Positions 6,015 through 13,362 of a DNA stretch of 33,991 nt are shown here, piece by piece; positions within the stretch are counted from its first letter, which is position 1; every line of letters begins with the position of its first letter. The DNA lies in contig CADARU010000014.1 in NCBI GenBank assembly GCA_902790415.1, positions 1 through 33,991 on the forward strand, read 5' to 3'. The stretch is from an uncultured Pseudomonadota bacterium. GTDB lineage: Bacteria > Pseudomonadota > Alphaproteobacteria > Rs-D84. The translations under genes and the position numbers were made by a program. Under the pieces are notes generated by a model. The model worked only from the letters and a program-made list of their open reading frames with translations, had not been told where the DNA came from and did not search any database.

Positions 6015-7802
6015 TTATACTTTCAGAGCGTTAATAAATGCAGATTGTGGTATTTCTACATTACCAAAAGTCCGCATACGTTTTTTTCCCTCTTTCTGCT
6101 TCTCCAACAATTTTCTTTTACGTGTGATATCGCCACCATAACATTTTGCGGTAACATCTTTGCGATATGCCGCGATTGTTTCACGCGCAATAATCTTGCC
6201 ACCAATCGCCGCCTGGAGTGGAATTTTAAATTGATGACGCGGAATCAAATCTTTTAACTTTTCAACAATGGTGCGACCACGTTTTTCGGCGGCACTGCGA
6301 TGACACATAAAAGATAAAGGTTCAACATTTTCTTCATTAACCAATATAGATACCTTGACCAAATCAGATGGTTGATAACCACAAATCGCATAATCAAATG
6401 ATGCATATCCCGAAGAAATAGATTTCACCCTGTCATAAAAATCAAAAACTATTTCCGCCAATGGCAATTTATAAACCAAAACCGCCCTGTTACCAACATA
6501 AGAAATATTTTCTTGGATACCGCGGCGTTCCGTACACAGCGACATAATTCCGCCAATATATTTTTCCGGCAGCATTATCGTTGCACGCACCCAAGGTTCT
6601 TCTATAGATTCTATTTTTGTAATATCTGGCATATCCGCAGGATTTTCCAAATCGACAACTTCACCATTTCGCAAATGAATTTTATACAACACACTTGGAA
6701 CTGTATTTATCAAATTCAAATTAAATTCACGCGCCAGACGTTCACTGATAATTTCCATGTGCAACAAACCCAAAAAACCACAGCGCAACCCAAAACCCAA
6801 CGCCGAAGATTTTTCGGTTGTAAAAACAAAAGACGCATCATTTAATGCTAAACGTTCCGCACTTTCGCGCAATGTTGGATAATCATCCGCTTCTACCGGA
6901 AAGAACGAAGAAAACACAACCGGTACCGATGGTTTAAATCCAGGCAACGCCTCAACCGTTGCACGCGCATCCGCAATGGTATCACCAACCTTGCAATCAT
7001 GAATCGTTTTCATCCCGGTAATGATAAACCCAACCTCGCCAGTGGTCAACGCATCAACATTAACCATTTTTGGGGTAAAGTATCCAATTTTTTCAACAGT
7101 ATATTCCGCACCTGTCGCCAAGAATTTAATCTTTTGGCCACGTCGCAACGCACCGTCAACAACACGCACCAAAACAACGACCCCCAAATAAGAATCATAC
7201 CAAGAATCAACCAACAATGCACGTGTCGCCGCATTTTCATCACCAGATGGCGCAGGCAATTTTTTAACGATTTCTTCCAACAATTCTGGAACCCCTGCCC
7301 CGGTTTTACCGGACACCGCCAACGCATCATCCGCATCCAAACCAATAACATCAGAAATTTGTTGACGGGTTGCCTCGACATCACTGGACGGCAAATCTAT
7401 TTTGTTCATTACCGGCAACATTTCTAAATCATTATCCAACGCCAAATAAGCATTTGCCAATGTCTGTGCCTGAACCCCTTGGGTTGCATCAACCAGAATC
7501 AACGCCCCCTCGCATGCGGCCAAACTGCGTGACACCTCGTACGAAAAATCGACATGTCCCGGTGTATCCATCAAATTCAGTTGATATGTATTTCCGTCCT
7601 TGGCGTGATAATTCAACCGAACTGTTTGCGCCTTAATCGTAATACCGCGTTCACGTTCTATATCCATAGAATCCAAAACCTGGGCCTTCATTTCACGAGA
7701 TTCTAATCCGCCAGTATATTCAATCAACCTGTCTGATAACGTTGATTTACCATGATCAATATGTGCAACAATAGAAAAATTTCTGATATACTTTTGATTC
7801 AT
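6015..7802 (-). CDS. lepA: Elongation factor 4 (ribosome back-translocase GTPase)
   Basis: LepA is a translational GTPase that acts on stalled or mistranslocated ribosomes. The 595 residues match the family length. The GTP-binding motifs are clear: AHIDHGKST (G1), DTPGHVDF (G3) and NKIDLP (G4). The LepA-specific C-terminal region with [20 protein letters not shown] is intact. The frame extends 23 codons further upstream, but ATG 7802 is chosen because it begins [18 protein letters not shown], as in homologues. That ATG also follows AAGGATAGCCAAGGG. The next two genes downstream (5633-5998 and 4611-5615) are tightly spaced on the same strand. Confidence 0.96.
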
Positions 7803-7881
7803 CCCTTGGCTATCCTTTATGCGGCAATGATACACACGTATAAGACAATTTTCAAGGCAAAAATCAGGCAATTATAAAATT

Positions 7882-8229
7882 TTATAAATTATTCAACAAA
7901 TCGTCAATCCTGGCCGCGCGTTCAATCGTGTCATCATACATAAATTTGATTTCAGGAACATATTTCTGATTCATTCTGCGCGCCAATTCAAACCGAATCG
8001 TTTTTGTTTCCGCGTCCAAACGCCCCTGAACCCCGGACACATCATTACTGCGGCAGAAAAAGAATAAACGCACAAATTGCAATCCACCATGTGCAACCGC
8101 ACCAACCAAGGACACCCCTGAAATCAAGGAGTCATCAGAATAATTATCACGCAATATTTCCGCAACCAATGTTTGCACCTTGGCGGCGACACGATCGTTA
8201 CGATTAGAATTTACGATTTTTCTTTGCAT
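7882..8229 (-). CDS. rbfA: Ribosome-binding factor A
   Basis: RbfA is a KH-fold factor that binds the 30S subunit during 16S rRNA maturation. The C-terminal half is diagnostic: IRFELARRMNQKYVPEIKF, then YDDTIERAARIDDLLN. The protein is 115 residues when started at ATG 8229 (MQRKIVNSNRNDRVA). An alternative TTG start three codons earlier (8238) is less likely. AGGT lies upstream of the ATG. The gene sits 79 bp upstream of lepA on the same strand. Confidence 0.92.
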   Translation of the reverse strand: MQRKIVNSNRNDRVAAKVQTLVAEILRDNYSDDSLISGVSLVGAVAHGGLQFVRLFFFCRSNDVSGVQGRLDAETKTIRFELARRMNQKYVPEIKFMYDDTIERAARIDDLLNNL

Positions 8230-8308
8230 AATGGTCAAACCTATATTTTTATGTATTGTAAAATATAAAATATTTAATTACAATCAAGAAAAAAATCGGG
8301 GCGTTCTT

Positions 8309-8787
8309 ATGAAGTTTTCTGAATATTTATTATCCAAAGCCTCGTTGCGAACAAAAAACGTGCGATTCCGGTGGTAATCGCCGCGGCACTGGGGTCTTTG
8401 GTTGGCGGGATAATTGCATATTGTATTGGATTGTGGTTATTTGATTCTGTTGGAATATGGTTAATAAACAACTTCGCCACGATGGAAAAATTCGAATTGG
8501 CACAACAAATGTTTATAACACATGGTGTATTCATAATATTTATGACCGCGGTAACACCGGTACCATATAAATTGATGGCAATATGCGCGGGCTTTATGGG
8601 TTTCCCGGCGGTTTTATTTCTGGGGTTATCGGCGATATTTAGGACGGGCCGCTTTGCAATTATGGGATATTTGCTCTGGCGATTCCAAGAACGCGCAAAC
8701 AGCATGGTAAAAAAATATTTTTGGCCACTGACAATCGCGGCAATAATTATCGCCGGTGCGGGAATTGGATTGATGTTGTTAATGTAA
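8309..8787 (+). pseudogene. YqaA/SNARE-associated (DedA-like) membrane protein gene, frameshifted with shortened N-terminus
   Basis: The downstream frame (readable back to 8323) encodes a VTT/SNARE-assoc membrane protein. It has the pieces ALGSLVGGIIAYCIG, TAVTPVPYKLMAICAGFMG and IFRTGRFAIMGYLLW, typical of alphaproteobacterial YqaA proteins. A good ATG at 8309 starts MKFSEYLLSKAS, but that frame stops at 8375-8377. The two frames meet around a run of six A at 8353-8358, where one extra A would join them. Even joined, the product lacks roughly 40 residues that normally form the first membrane hairpin with its conserved acidic and Pro residues. A deletion plus frameshift therefore fits best. 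Translation from GTG 8371 without a Shine-Dalgarno cannot be excluded, nor can an assembly error. Confidence 0.7.
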
Positions 8788-8818
8788 CTTTTTGTTTTTA
8801 TTTAATGCCTTTTTATGA

Positions 8819-8824
8819 TATAAT
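8819..8824 (+). promoter_or_regulatory. -10 box upstream of the barrel protein gene
   Basis: TATAAT lies 33 bp before the ATG at 8858. The -35 region is T-rich with no good hexamer. A strong Shine-Dalgarno AGGAGA is at 8848-8853. Confidence 0.5.
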
Positions 8825-8857
8825 CCATATGTAATAAAATAAAAAACAGGAGAAAAC

Positions 8858-9697
8858 ATGAAAAAATTTATCGTCAGTTTAATTGCCATTACTGTTGCAT
8901 CTAACGCAATGGCGGCATGTTCTGGTAGTCAGGGTTCTTGCAAACCGAAAAAGGTTCGTATCATTCACATAACCTCGAATAACGCGGGCGAAATGTATGG
9001 CAGTAACACATATACAATTAATGAAGATGCCCAGACAGAACCGGTTTACACAACAACCACAGAATCCGAAACCAAGTATGTACGCACCGATAATTCCAGT
9101 TTCTATGTTGGCGCACACTTGGATTTGAATTTGTTAAATTTCAAAACAAAATATCATGCAACCCCGACGGGCGCGATTGCAGATCCAAATGCCGATCATG
9201 ACGATTATCGTTTTGAACCAGTATTTGGCGGCAATGTATTTTTCGGACGTAATTTTAGCAAATCTTGGCGTGGCGATTTAGAATTAGGTTATATAACAAA
9301 ATTTACCGATTCTGATGATGGTATCACATTAGGATTGTCCGCACCATATTTATTGGGAAATGTTTATTATACATTTGATGGTGGTGTATATTTGGGTGCC
9401 GGTGTTGGTATTGCAATGCCACGCGTTAGTGTAGATTGGACATACTTTACCGCGGATGATTCATCCGAAACAAAATTATCCTTTATGGGTGCCGGTATGT
9501 TAGGATACAACTATCGCTTGTCTGATAATGTTGTTTTAGATTTGCGTTATCGTTTGGCGGCATTTGACGGACCAAGCATTACACGTGATGTAGAAGGTCA
9601 TACCCCAGTTGGTTTGGAACCATTGAAAAAATTGGAAACAGATGTCAAAACCGTATGGGATAATTCGTTTTCTATCGGTATTAGATACGAATTCTAA
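8858..9697 (+). CDS. Outer-membrane beta-barrel protein
   Basis: The 279-residue protein begins with a signal peptide of about 19 residues (MKKFIVSLIAITVASNAMA|A). A short Cys-containing linker and a Thr-rich segment follow. From about residue 75 onward there are alternating hydrophobic strands with Gly and aromatic residues (SSFYVGAHLDLNLLNF, GGVYLGAGVGIAMP, VVLDLRYRLAAF). It ends FSIGIRYEF, with the terminal Phe that the BAM machinery recognises. This is a small OmpA/OmpW-like eight- to ten-stranded barrel, and the exact family is not certain. Its size and structure suggest a surface antigen or small porin. It is followed 39 bp later by another exported protein on the same strand. Confidence 0.8.
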   Translation: MKKFIVSLIAITVASNAMAACSGSQGSCKPKKVRIIHITSNNAGEMYGSNTYTINEDAQTEPVYTTTTESETKYVRTDNSSFYVGAHLDLNLLNFKTKYHATPTGAIADPNADHDDYRFEPVFGGNVFFGRNFSKSWRGDLELGYITKFTDSDDGITLGLSAPYLLGNVYYTFDGGVYLGAGVGIAMPRVSVDWTYFTADDSSETKLSFMGAGMLGYNYRLSDNVVLDLRYRLAAFDGPSITRDVEGHTPVGLEPLKKLETDVKTVWDNSFSIGIRYEF

Positions 9698-9736
9698 TAT
9701 TTCATAACAGGCCACAACAAACAGAGGGAGAGCAGA

Positions 9737-10981
9737 ATGAAAAAAATATCGATTTTATCCATATCGGTGATATTGGGTATGGCGGTGTATGGTGAATCAA
9801 TAGCATCGTCATTGGTTACATCGGCAAATTCCGCAAATACCGGGGCAATATCGCGTGCATCTTCCCTGCGTTTGAATAGTTTAAGCCGTTCGGCCAGTTT
9901 GGGTCCCAAGACCAAAGCAACAAAATCAGTTAGCACAAAGACCACCGCGGTCAAACAAGATGCCGCAACGCAAACACGTTCATCTTCGACACCGCGCAGT
10001 TCGATTGGACGTTATATTGGTGCCGCCCAAGAACAATCGGTCAGTATGGCCGCATTACCTAACCCATTGTTTGAACGCATTGAAGGCATTGAAAACAATG
10101 TTCAAAATTTGGAAGGCGAAGTTCAAAATTTGAATCAAACAAAACAAGACAAGGTCACAGATGCCCAACCGGGCAACATTGCAATTTGGGATGATGCCGG
10201 TCAAACCAGTGATTCCGGTAAATCCGTCACCGAAGATGCGGTTAGCGATGCCAGCACACATGACACAATTCCAACATCCCAGGCGGTTTATGATTATGTC
10301 AATGCGCAAAACTATGTTGATTCCGACACATTAACCCAAACATTAACGGATTATGTAACAACCGATGCTATTACTGATGCGGTCAACAGTGCCGCACAAA
10401 CAGTTGTTGATGGATTGGCACCGGTCGCAATAAGTGGTGCGTATTCTGATTTAACTGGTACTCCGACATTGGCACCGGTTGCAACAAGTGGCGCGTATTC
10501 TGATTTAACTGGTACTCCGACATTAGCACCTGTTGCTACAAGCGGTTCGTATAACGATTTAACAGATCGTCCGGAATTAGCCGACGTTGCAATAAGTGGT
10601 GCGTATTCTGATTTAACTGGTACTCCGACATTGGCACCTGTTGCGACAAGTGGTTCGTATAATGATTTGATTAATGTTCCTCAAAATCTGGCGACAAATG
10701 ATCAAATAACAGAGATTATGCAAACAGCAAATTCAGCATTAAACACTGCAAATATTGCGAATACAGCGGCGACCGCGGCGACAACTGCGGCACAACTTGC
10801 CGCCGATACCGCGTCTACGGCACAAACCACCGCGCAAAACGCATTAAATGCACTTGATGACAAGCAAGACCGTGTCATTGGAACCAGTGCGGATTATGGT
10901 AAAATATTATTTATAAACAATGACGGAACAATTGGTATATCAGAAATAACAATTTCAGATTTATATAACGTCATACCATAA
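9737..10981 (+). CDS. Exported protein with phage-tail-like 18-residue repeats
   Basis: The 414-residue protein has an N-terminal signal peptide (MKKISILSISVILGMAVYG, cleavage near ESIAS). A basic Ser/Arg/Thr-rich region follows (ASSLVTS, RASSLRLN, SIGRYIGAA), then a short coiled coil (ENNVQNLEGEVQNLNQ). After it lie five tandem 18-residue repeats of the form LAPVATSGAYSDLTGTPT at residues 227-315. An Ala/Thr coiled coil (about 325-385) and a small C-terminal domain ending SDLYNVIP complete it. The repeat resembles those in phage tail-fibre proteins, but this is an exported bacterial protein. The N-terminal words recur in the protein at 11124-13232. It has Shine-Dalgarno AGGGAG, and a terminator follows. 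Fibrous surface display is inferred. Confidence 0.75.
   Translation: MKKISILSISVILGMAVYGESIASSLVTSANSANTGAISRASSLRLNSLSRSASLGPKTKATKSVSTKTTAVKQDAATQTRSSSTPRSSIGRYIGAAQEQSVSMAALPNPLFERIEGIENNVQNLEGEVQNLNQTKQDKVTDAQPGNIAIWDDAGQTSDSGKSVTEDAVSDASTHDTIPTSQAVYDYVNAQNYVDSDTLTQTLTDYVTTDAITDAVNSAAQTVVDGLAPVAISGAYSDLTGTPTLAPVATSGAYSDLTGTPTLAPVATSGSYNDLTDRPELADVAISGAYSDLTGTPTLAPVATSGSYNDLINVPQNLATNDQITEIMQTANSALNTANIANTAATAATTAAQLAADTASTAQTTAQNALNALDDKQDRVIGTSADYGKILFINNDGTIGISEITISDLYNVIP
10415..10681 (+). repeat. Five tandem 54-bp coding repeats
   Basis: Units start at 10415, 10469, 10523, 10577 and 10631. They encode LAPVA[IT]SG[AS]Y[SN]DLT variants. Units 1, 2 and 4 are nearly identical, units 3 and 5 carry SYNDL, and unit 5 is truncated to 51 bp. 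High nucleotide identity suggests recent expansion or gene conversion. Confidence 0.85.
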
Positions 10982-11006
10982 TAATTTAAATTTATAAAAC
11001 ATATTT

Positions 11007-11034
11007 CACCCCCGGCTTACAGCCGGGGTGTTTG
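11007..11034 (+). terminator. Terminator after the repeat protein gene
   Basis: CACCCCCGGCT pairs with AGCCGGGGTG around a short TAC loop with one bulged C, followed by TTTGTTT. It lies about 25 bp after the stop at 10981. Confidence 0.8.
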
Positions 11035-11076
11035 TTTAGTTATTTCTTCGGATTTACATTTACAAAGATAAAAAAT

Positions 11077-11101
11077 AACAGGCGACAAAACATCGCCTGT
11101 T
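11077..11101. terminator. Bidirectional terminator between convergent surface-protein genes
   Basis: AACAGGCGA pairs perfectly with TCGCCTGTT across CAAAACA. T runs follow on both strands. It mainly serves the minus-strand gene that stops at 11124. Confidence 0.8.
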
Positions 11102-11123
11102 GTTTTTCCTGTGCATACAAATA

Positions 11124-13232
11124 CTATTTTGCTAACACAGAATTATCGATAGCAACTTGCGTTGCGGTAATGTTTCCATCTGTCCCAACAGTCAACTTGC
11201 CCGCTACCTTGGTTGCAATTAAATCACTTATTGCACTGTTGTCATCATTTATAATTGCCACCAAATTACTGGATAAATTATCATTTTTAACAATACTCGT
11301 GTTATTATTAACCGCCGCATTAAATTCGGTAGAAAAGTCCTGTTTTTCCAAATATTTTTCTTGCAAAGTAGCGGTTGTCGCGTAATTTTGCAATTCCGCC
11401 TTGGTTGCGGCAGCGGCCAAATTTGTTTGCACATTCTTGAACGCAGTATCAGCGGCCAGTTTTTCAGCAAAATCCGCAGAATTCATTTTCTGGGCAATTT
11501 GATTTGTATTCGCGGTAATCAAATTCTTCAAATTATTTTTATCGGTGGCCGCGTCTTCTTTTGTCATATATGTCGCGGCGATACTTGCCGGAATCGCATC
11601 AACATTGGCCGTCAACGTTACATACGCATCTGTTTCTTTCAACTTATTATTCAACGCATCGTTACGAACATAATTCGCAGCAACCGCATTTGTATAATTT
11701 CCAAACACGTCATTTGAAACTTTGTTTGCCAATGCCGCATCAAACTGGTTCAATTTAACGGTGCCTGCATCCAAAGTATTGAAATATGTTTTCAAGTTTT
11801 CTACACGCGCATCCAAACGTGCGGCCTGGTTCGCAATCTCCGATGCATTTTGTTGTTGGGCCGTATCCAGGTCATCAAACCGACCCATAAATATCGAATT
11901 TTGCGCCTCCAGGTCACTAATACGCCCCGCCAAACCACTATTTGTATTGCTATTTGAGGAACCCATTTCTTCCATTTCGGCCTGTGTTGCTTGCAACGCC
12001 GAATTCAATTCCCCAATATGATGCGCCCAGCCATTTTCATTGTTTGGATCGGCCGCGTCATTAAACTTACCATCAATATATGCTTTTACTGTTGCATCTT
12101 GGATAGGTCCAACAACACTGTCGCTAACCCATCCTCTGGTGCTATTATCTTTAGCATCCACATATTCTTTTACAGTGGGTGCACTATCCCTACCTATCGT
12201 TCTGCCTGTTACATCATCCAATCCGATTCTGTTGTTTACAAATGTTTTTGTTGCCATATCATTTGTTTTGGTATCTGTATATGCATTTGCACCAGTTTTC
12301 GCCGCATCTGCGTATTCTTTGGCCGAAGCATAAGAACCGATATTACCAATTTTGGAATCTGTATAAGTGTTTGCACCTGCTTTGGCCGCATCAGTATAAC
12401 GCATAGCCGCATCTTTTGCATCTGCAACATTTTGTAACGTTGCCATATTGGCAATTGCACCAGAATCTATTTTTGTCGCCAAGGTGTTTTGCATATTTTC
12501 AATCGTTGATAACGCACCCGTTACCCGATTTTGTAAATCGGATATATCCGAGGACGTTAACCCAGACAATTGTTCTGTTTTACCTTTTACATTTTCTATT
12601 TCTTGGTTTAATGTACCAACCTGTTGATTAAACTCAGACATTTGCACAGAATTCGCAGCAAGTGTTGTTAACCGTTGTTCCAATGTTCCAAGGTTTCCTT
12701 GCAAAGTTGTAATACTCTCTGTTAATGTTGATACATCTGCATCACTGGTTGCCTGTAACGTGGCAATATTTGACTCGATTGTATTCAAATTAACTTTTAT
12801 ATCATTTATTGTACGCTTGGCCTCTATAACACTGTCCGCCGCCAAGGCCGCCGCATCATACGCGGTATCTATGCGTACACTTAATGCATCCATTTGCGAT
12901 TGAATTGCCGCGTTTGTTAACGCCCCAGAATTTGTTCCAGATGTCCCGGCATTTGTCCCACCCGTTGTGCCAGAATTTGTTCCGGAACCACTACTGGTTT
13001 TAATTGCACCAATTGTTTTGATTGAACCGATACGGCCTATTTCATTATTCCTGGCCGCAGATTTAACAACCGAATTATCTGATGCAACCTTGTTATTTAC
13101 ACGCAATGACCCCGCACGATGCGCCGCCACAGATTGTGTGGACTTGGAATCACCACTGGACACCAAAGTAGATGCCGCCATCGCACTTGTTGCAACAGAT
13201 ATCGCAATAATACTGACCAAGAATTTTTTCAT
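11124..13232 (-). CDS. Long exported coiled-coil surface protein
   Basis: Started at ATG 13232, which follows AAGGAGAT, the protein is 702 residues with a signal peptide MKKFLVSIIAISVATSAMAA. The mature N-terminus carries ASTLVSS, HRAGSLRVN and IGRIGSIKTIGA, words shared with the protein at 9737-10981. A Gly/Thr/Ser linker follows. Then comes a very long Ala/Thr/Asn-rich coiled coil with heptad-like stretches (ATLQATSDADVSTLTES, LEQRLTTLAANS). It includes imperfect repeats of about 20 residues built on AKxGANxYTDxK (DAAKAGANTYTDSK, DAAKTGANAYTDTK). No C-terminal barrel anchor is visible, so it is not a complete trimeric autotransporter. It is probably secreted or attached by another partner. 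The frame extends 24 codons upstream without ribosome-binding support. No function is assigned. Confidence 0.75.
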   Translation of the reverse strand: MKKFLVSIIAISVATSAMAASTLVSSGDSKSTQSVAAHRAGSLRVNNKVASDNSVVKSAARNNEIGRIGSIKTIGAIKTSSGSGTNSGTTGGTNAGTSGTNSGALTNAAIQSQMDALSVRIDTAYDAAALAADSVIEAKRTINDIKVNLNTIESNIATLQATSDADVSTLTESITTLQGNLGTLEQRLTTLAANSVQMSEFNQQVGTLNQEIENVKGKTEQLSGLTSSDISDLQNRVTGALSTIENMQNTLATKIDSGAIANMATLQNVADAKDAAMRYTDAAKAGANTYTDSKIGNIGSYASAKEYADAAKTGANAYTDTKTNDMATKTFVNNRIGLDDVTGRTIGRDSAPTVKEYVDAKDNSTRGWVSDSVVGPIQDATVKAYIDGKFNDAADPNNENGWAHHIGELNSALQATQAEMEEMGSSNSNTNSGLAGRISDLEAQNSIFMGRFDDLDTAQQQNASEIANQAARLDARVENLKTYFNTLDAGTVKLNQFDAALANKVSNDVFGNYTNAVAANYVRNDALNNKLKETDAYVTLTANVDAIPASIAATYMTKEDAATDKNNLKNLITANTNQIAQKMNSADFAEKLAADTAFKNVQTNLAAAATKAELQNYATTATLQEKYLEKQDFSTEFNAAVNNNTSIVKNDNLSSNLVAIINDDNSAISDLIATKVAGKLTVGTDGNITATQVAIDNSVLAK

Positions 13233-13333
13233 TAAGAATCTCCTTTTCCTACTATAGTACATAATATCATATTTTATGGTTTTATCACAAGCAAATAAAT
13301 GCAAAAAACAGAAATTATAAAATTATCTTAGTC

Positions 13334-13362
13334 TTGACCCAAAAAGTTTTTTTTACTAACAT
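13334..13362 (+). promoter_or_regulatory. Promoter of ftsE, predicted to give a leaderless transcript
   Basis: TTGACC at 13334-13339 and TAACAT at 13357-13362 are 17 bp apart. The ftsE ATG at 13370 begins only 7 bases after the -10 box, where transcription itself is expected to start. No Shine-Dalgarno precedes the ATG. Confidence 0.5.

Follow-up and report, generated by a model that had tools for sequence, protein, structure and literature searches.

The stretch of DNA described here, referred to as the window, covers contig C14 (CADARU010000014.1; 33,991 nucleotides) from end to end and comes from an uncultured alphaproteobacterium of the Rs-D84 lineage (assembly GCA_902790415.1, our genome G000), whose genome measures 895 kb. 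Our subject is a pair of neighbouring genes encoding the exported proteins P0001 and P0002, together with the gene directly upstream of P0001. A preliminary description of this DNA had claimed that the two proteins share an N-terminal module while differing in their fibrous bodies, and that this shared N-terminus may be the attachment or sorting signal of a modular family of surface fibres. The features on which the argument turns are as follows.

8858 to 9697, plus strand: candidate partner gene, an outer-membrane beta-barrel protein of 279 aa (Pfam PF13505)
9737 to 10981, plus strand: P0001, a module-bearing fibre-like protein of 414 aa, with its ATG at 9737
9803 to 9823, plus strand: P0001 motif 1, ASSLVTS, residues 23–29, close to the predicted mature N-terminus
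9854 to 9877, plus strand: P0001 motif 2, RASSLRLN, residues 40–47
9992 to 10027, plus strand: P0001 motif 3, PRSSIGRYIGAA, residues 86–97, the counterpart of the relatives' PRLSIGKYLGG in a 26-sequence alignment
10418 to 10687, plus strand: five phage-tail-like repeats of 18 residues in P0001, residues 228–317
10895 to 10951, plus strand: predicted C-terminal beta hairpin of P0001, residues 387–405 (AlphaFold2, low to moderate confidence)
11124 to 13232, minus strand: P0002, a putative divergent module-bearing protein of 702 aa with a long Ala/Thr/Asn-rich body
13155 to 13175, minus strand: P0002 motif 1, ASTLVSS, residues 20–26
13095 to 13118, minus strand: P0002 motif 2, RAGSLRVN, residues 39–46

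The P0002 start used here is the ATG at 13232 on the minus strand; the open frame extends upstream to a TTG at 13304. Both proteins carry the mature N-terminal sequence AS[ST]LV[TS]S followed by RA[SG]SLR[LV]N, and the similarity survives alignment: the local score between the mature N-termini is 68, a value reached in 9 of 5000 trials in which the P0002 segment was shuffled. The further claim, that an IGR-containing segment is common to both, stood for one protein only. The family's third motif has the form R-x-S-[IVL]-G-[RK]-Y, and PRSSIGRYIGAA of P0001 is a genuine instance of it, while the NEIGRIGSI of P0002 is a doubtful counterpart. P0001 also has a second Arg copy, RSASLG, at residues 51–56 after motif 2, and it is this copy, not the first, that occupies the motif-2 column of the 26-sequence alignment. 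The P0001 module contains 11 Lys and Arg residues and two acidic ones.

The module proved to be widespread. Within the order, a profile built from the 26-sequence alignment matched 152 of 201 genomes, the own genome counted, and these fall in 9 of 23 genera; other proteins were among the matches. A search of this kind had been named as one that could overturn the idea of a module family, and it did not do so. The alignment includes both P0001 and P0003, a third protein of G000 encoded on contig C4, and the scores of these two against the profile are not independent. Searches were also run with single N-termini: the first 138 residues of P0001 matched 22 of 59 genomes at the loose threshold of E≤1, and with E≤0.001 as the limit the N-terminus of a foreign protein, from genome G017, matched 100 of the 141 genomes in the genus (own genome counted in each case), recovering P0003 at E=6.5e-5 and P0001 at E=3.1e-4. 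Against a profile from 43 foreign sequences P0003 scored 70.4 bits and P0001 18.1 bits, the latter above all 2000 shuffles (best 15.7). We infer that the genus of P0001 is that of Candidatus Enterousia, which are gut alphaproteobacteria.

In the 26-sequence alignment the consensus reads AxSVRSLGGxGTY for motif 1, RAGSxRV for motif 2 and PRLSIGKYLGG for motif 3, with R61, R88, S90 and G92 (first-row numbering) invariant. Proteins with motif 3 are here termed type A. P0001 is one of them: its signal peptide is followed by a basic segment that holds both Arg motif 2 and motif 3. Among the type-A proteins, 45 of 49 show the motif-2 pattern within their first 130 residues, as against 12 of 138 other fibres and none of 721 other genes. 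Among 150 sampled pairs, identity was higher in the module than in the body in 149 (medians of 55% and 30%). No significant match to the module was found in Pfam, NCBIfam or the PDB, where a search with the module profile returned six matches that we regard as chance (best E 0.37); PADLOC gave no match for P0001, P0002 or P0003, and a contig scan with P0003 alone found 14 stretches that fit a pattern, with no relatives among them. The titles and abstract openings that we surveyed on Enterousia, Rs-D84, RF32 adhesins and the fibres of reduced-genome Alphaproteobacteria, a set that includes PMC12306168 and leaves subscription journals mostly outside, do not describe the module.

What is observed, then, is a signal peptide, a basic segment rich in Ser, Thr, Ala and Gly that bears two or three short Arg motifs, and a freely changing, mostly acidic body. 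Measured over the 43 type-A genes whose start is clear, the module has a median length of 76 residues, a net charge of +7 (range +3 to +10) and a median of one acidic residue, and two thirds of it is Ser, Thr, Ala or Gly; the remainder of the protein has a median charge of −47, and in 42 of the 43 a positive module is joined to a negative body. For comparison, residues 25–105 of 138 other fibre gene frames have a median charge of −5. The modular half of the preliminary description, that one module heads proteins with differing bodies across the genus and family, is strongly supported, also by the conserved partner gene described below; the attachment or sorting role that it assigned to the module is plausible, and is weighed below.

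The bodies themselves were described with mixed success. The phage-tail-like repeats of P0001 are five units at a constant spacing of 18 residues, which also match phrog_17509, of unknown function, at E=3.9e-20. Among 38 phage records, some contain tail proteins to which P0001 residues 129–319 are similar, and in one relative the collagen-like part is matched by tail-fibre PHROGs; both might suggest that a prophage tail-fibre module left these genes behind or carried them as cargo. We consider this very improbable, given the signal peptides and the fixed cellular neighbourhood of the genes, and given that viral contigs, scanned once with the motif-3 pattern, yielded no relative. None of the 38 phage records spans 80% of P0001. 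The body of P0002, which had been called a 500-residue Ala/Thr coiled coil, is indeed rich in these residues (15.4% Ala, 10.5% Thr and 10.8% Asn over residues 111–702), but the coiled coil is uncertain: matches of coiled-coil type are weak and below cut-offs, and a Fourier test of hydrophobic spacing showed no heptad peak (power 0.25 at 3.5 residues). As had been claimed, neither protein contains a barrel or anchor domain detectable by Pfam.

P0001 and a relative of 372 aa were modelled with AlphaFold. Confidence is low overall (mean pLDDT 47.9 and 54.1), but both models show a signal helix, then an almost unstructured module followed by a helix (pLDDT blocks reach 89 and 85), and a hairpin at the end. 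A C-terminal tip common to P0001 and P0002 was suggested by eye and by the hairpin in the P0001 model, and was dropped as unsupported by a test of tail profiles. Built from 41 type-A tails, the profile exceeds 5 bits in 95 of the 129 other fibres tested but in none of 152 housekeeping tails, and none of 2000 shuffles scored as well as P0003; the signature is not significant in P0001 (equalled by 503 of 2000 shuffles) or in P0002 (201 of 2000).

Judged by its sequence, P0002 is a divergent member of the module family. Its score of 4.2 bits against the 43-sequence foreign profile was equalled or bettered by 14 of 2000 shuffles, and its score of 7.8 bits against a profile of six sequences, with P0001 in and P0002 out, by 4 of 3000. 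With the N-terminus of P0002 as query, a type-A module in genome G124 was found at E=6e-4, a weak value from a table in which low-complexity matches also occur. Furthermore, genome G009 holds a locus (L058, on contig C81) with three genes that share a near-identical signal peptide and the start ASSLVSGANQ, followed by differing Cys-rich bodies, while a fourth gene there has a different signal peptide and a collagen-like body; the genes of this locus align with both P0001 and P0002 and bridge them. Nor is a module protein without an evident motif 3 peculiar to this contig, as four loci of other genomes (L241–L244) encode proteins whose start is AASLR or AASVR and which also carry a RAG[ST][ML]R motif. 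We set aside as evidence a profile of P0002, its G009 relatives and P0001, which matched 96 of 151 genomes at E≤0.05, given that most of the matches listed cover little beyond the signal peptide.

The alternative is that P0002 resembles P0001 by composition, both being Ser/Thr/Ala-rich after the signal peptide, in which case the family would be real and P0002 outside it. Consistent with this, the type-A profile missed P0002, and the score of 2.1 bits that it obtains against the largest, pooled profile was reached by 144 of 3000 shuffles. Against it stand the rarity of equally good shuffles in the pairwise, 43-sequence and six-sequence comparisons, the G124 match, weak as it is, the bridging genes and the proteins lacking an evident motif 3 elsewhere, and we regard it as a rather improbable account. 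Counting P0002 as a member, we arrive at five module proteins in G000, namely P0001, P0002, P0003, a 245 aa protein encoded on contig C11 and an 823 aa protein encoded on contig C2, of which P0002 and the last two are less certain.

A conserved partner gene had been proposed as a further thing to look for, and one was found. Directly upstream of 42 of the 45 testable type-A genes (those with at least 900 bases available upstream), on the same strand and at a gap of 12–91 bp (median 63), lies a gene of a single barrel family. The barrel gene of the window belongs to it: its product matches Pfam OMP_b-brl (PF13505) at E=6.8e-10, with 39.8 bits against a cut-off of 28.7, and the gene ends 39 bp before P0001, with no terminator-like site in the gap. 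In a single comparison the window barrel is 37% identical over 207 residues (E=6e-42) to the barrel of locus L136, which itself has no Pfam match at E≤0.01 despite this homology. The pair of barrel and module genes is also present in G009, and in all six loci sampled from four other genera of the family (out of 10 matching genomes outside the genus), where the barrels match that of the window at E values from 9e-53 to 2e-35. Paralogous pairs occur in loci L097 and L104, on contigs other than those of these genomes' other module genes, again with barrels homologous to the window's. Adjoining these second pairs (L097 1765–7035; L104 2851–6630 and 8991–13746) are giant exported proteins of 516–1757 aa with starts like VVNVEYVH and ends like TGLSDYSSIPAAWK, two of which have PKD-like matches.

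The neighbourhood of the pair is itself conserved, and the window has its landmarks, with the pair inverted. The landmarks, and the terminator-like sites between the two module genes, are these.

6015 to 7871, minus strand: LepA (Pfam LepA_C), on one side
7882 to 8238, minus strand: RbfA (Pfam RBFA), on the same side
8371 to 8787, plus strand: VTT-domain protein (Pfam VTT_dom), on the same side
11010 to 11028, plus strand: terminator-like stem-loop 3' of P0001
11077 to 11101, minus strand: terminator-like stem-loop 3' of P0002
13334 to 15507, plus strand: ABC ATPase (FtsE-like), membrane protein (FtsX-like) and DUF218 protein (Pfam ABC_tran, DUF218), on the other side

The number of terminator-like sites in the region, seven, is to be read against 5.1 expected in shuffles. 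The ABC ATPase and the membrane protein, the latter of which has no Pfam match, we regard as FtsE-like and FtsX-like. Across 60 surveyed loci of named genome records, the barrel family is present in 56, an FtsE-like gene in 53, an FtsX-like gene in 52, an acyltransferase in 51, a DUF218 gene in 49, a TolB-like gene in 48 and a Pal-like lipoprotein gene in 45; the Pal-like assignment is below cut-off in NCBIfam and is OmpA by Pfam, and the other gene names at the locus are in part assignments by similarity. The pair in the window sits in the usual interval, bounded by ftsE at one end and by VTT, rbfA and lepA at the opposite end, but its orientation is reversed, as set out below; the G009 locus has the usual gene arrangement.

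The presence of TolB-like, Pal-like and FtsEX-like genes at the relatives' locus invites another explanation, in which the proteins are not surface fibres but periplasmic tethers that link the outer membrane, through the barrel, to the Tol-Pal and peptidoglycan layer. A weak match of P0001 to Alanine_zipper, of the Lpp type, points the same way, though it is below cut-off. However, the lengths of the 49 type-A proteins range from 150 to 1468 aa (some being cut at locus ends), a poor fit to a spacer of fixed periplasmic width, and the bodies diverge fast and include phage-tail-like stretches and collagen-like ones, the latter below the Pfam cut-off. We judge the tether explanation unlikely.

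The reading that we put forward instead gives the module the task of docking or sorting fibres at the outer membrane, in partnership with the barrel, and we allow it about an even chance of being correct. On this model the fibre-like protein would first be exported by Sec, and its disordered, basic N-terminus would then be captured at the outer membrane by recognition of the linear motifs. The small beta-barrel encoded next to it would most likely do the capturing, leaving the acidic shaft, probably a trimer, to project outward. The module would act as the plug of a plug-and-socket arrangement, a tail by which a single docking site could carry many different fibres. Going further, barrel and module may constitute a docking system of two genes that is as yet undescribed, in which the barrel is a generic socket and the disordered Arg-motif tail fits into it, letting fibre bodies be swapped freely in gut bacteria with reduced genomes, the pair having been duplicated as a unit to serve separate arrays of surface proteins; this larger proposal we offer tentatively, as a possibility short of even odds.

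Several observations weigh against the docking reading. The main gap is that the small barrel offers no obvious export pore, which leaves the passage of the shaft across the outer membrane unexplained, and the surface location, binding and trimerisation of the fibres are properties that we infer. The association of barrel and module is also not universal: the type-A genes of L175, L176 and L192 have no barrel directly upstream, nor do the module genes of L105 and L060 (the latter on contig C26 of G009), nor, in G000 itself, do P0002, P0003 and the C2 gene, while the C11 gene (L211) lies beside a divergent barrel of another family. P0002 has motifs 1 and 2 only, without a demonstrable third, and was not found in its own genome by the type-A profile at E≤10. 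The window pair is inverted with respect to ftsE, which is upstream of and divergent from the barrel gene in all 53 loci with both genes; here P0002 and the end of P0001 face ftsE, and P0002 lies between P0001 and ftsE (interval 8371–13334). Finally, the pattern of barrel identity shows a partial correlation of 0.44 with that of the module, a value that none of 2000 label permutations reached. As an argument, co-evolution specific to this pair was nonetheless rejected, because the barrel tracks the body almost equally (0.41).

A different role for the module would be that of a signal for export or sorting, recognised by a secretion machine in the way that CsgG reads the N22 region of CsgA, after which the fibres would be released or would polymerise rather than be anchored. 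The position of the module after the signal peptide, its predicted disorder and its basic linear motifs would suit a targeting segment. Candidate machines exist, with a secretin gene in five of six genomes tested, at some 26–38 kb from the module gene on the same contig in four of them, and a TolC-type OEP in all six. On the other hand, the secretin of G000 is on a different contig, the immediate neighbour of the module gene is a small barrel that is neither pore nor secretin, and CsgG is absent from all six genomes, whereas 4 of 14 control genomes were positive. Curli-type export was rejected on this last count, and the export-signal role as a whole seems to us unlikely. A secretin is nevertheless one possible route by which the fibres might be exported, also where the module serves for docking. 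In G000 the secretin gene follows a TcpQ-like gene on contig C3 (L223 6271–8908), a neighbour checked in this genome only; the other tested genomes with secretins are G103, G096, G072 and G003.

The preliminary description had also grouped the partial open reading frame at 1–285 with P0001 and P0002, on the ground of similar composition. By its C-terminus this fragment appears to belong elsewhere: it ends SCTAGTPCALVDVNGTKTWLGMAI, resembling a second family of exported fibres on contig C4 of G000, and its score against a C-terminal profile was equalled by 16 of 2000 shuffles. The assignment is made by the C-terminus because the N-terminus falls off the contig, plausibly at a break of the kind to be expected where such repetitive genes assemble poorly. 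The family in question is probably that of fibres with a mature start like IASK-x-YVD. Arrays of these follow the type-A gene in most of 12 mapped loci (L136 10156–14335, L149, L158 and others), frequently with a C-terminal C...CVL....W signature.

Although the genomes concerned measure only some 1 Mb or less, several large fibre-like genes are kept together in the loci that we inspected, from which we conclude that these proteins are probably important for living in the gut. What is new here is the barrel-family gene closely upstream of the type-A module genes. If the barrel truly is a socket, the pair would represent a simple and new means of fibre retention in Gram-negative bacteria, one that needs neither a lipid anchor nor a C-terminal barrel, and the motifs would serve as a tag for locating the surface proteins of a barely studied lineage.

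Four known systems bear comparison. YadA-like trimeric autotransporters are likewise exported and have long helical or fibrous shafts, but they carry a C-terminal YadA_anchor, which Pfam does not find in P0001, P0002 or P0003, nor in the type-A proteins of L172, L174 and L183; G000 does encode a YadA-type trimeric autotransporter of 817 aa, on contig C2 (L212 4717–7167). Phage tail fibres resemble the present proteins in their shafts, with 18-residue repeats and collagen-like stretches, and differ in that here there are signal peptides, a cellular neighbourhood and an unrelated N-terminal module. In curli, the N22 segment of CsgA is described as the targeting region bound by CsgG (PMC7217966), and a functional comparison can be drawn with a disordered N-terminal segment that follows the signal peptide of an exported fibre protein; our module, however, is longer and basic, the bodies that it heads are by inspection not curli repeats, and the genomes tested have no CsgG. 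A parallel to the docking reading is offered by the N-terminal domain of BclA in the Bacillus exosporium, where a short segment of a trimeric collagen-like filament suffices for attachment to BxpB, a small beta-rich protein of the basal layer (PMC10470788). The setting differs, with a Gram-negative envelope, a signal peptide and an outer-membrane barrel as partner, and the comparison is one of function; in our case as well, fibre-like proteins, some of them collagen-like, start with a short N-terminal segment and are encoded beside the conserved gene of a candidate beta-rich partner.

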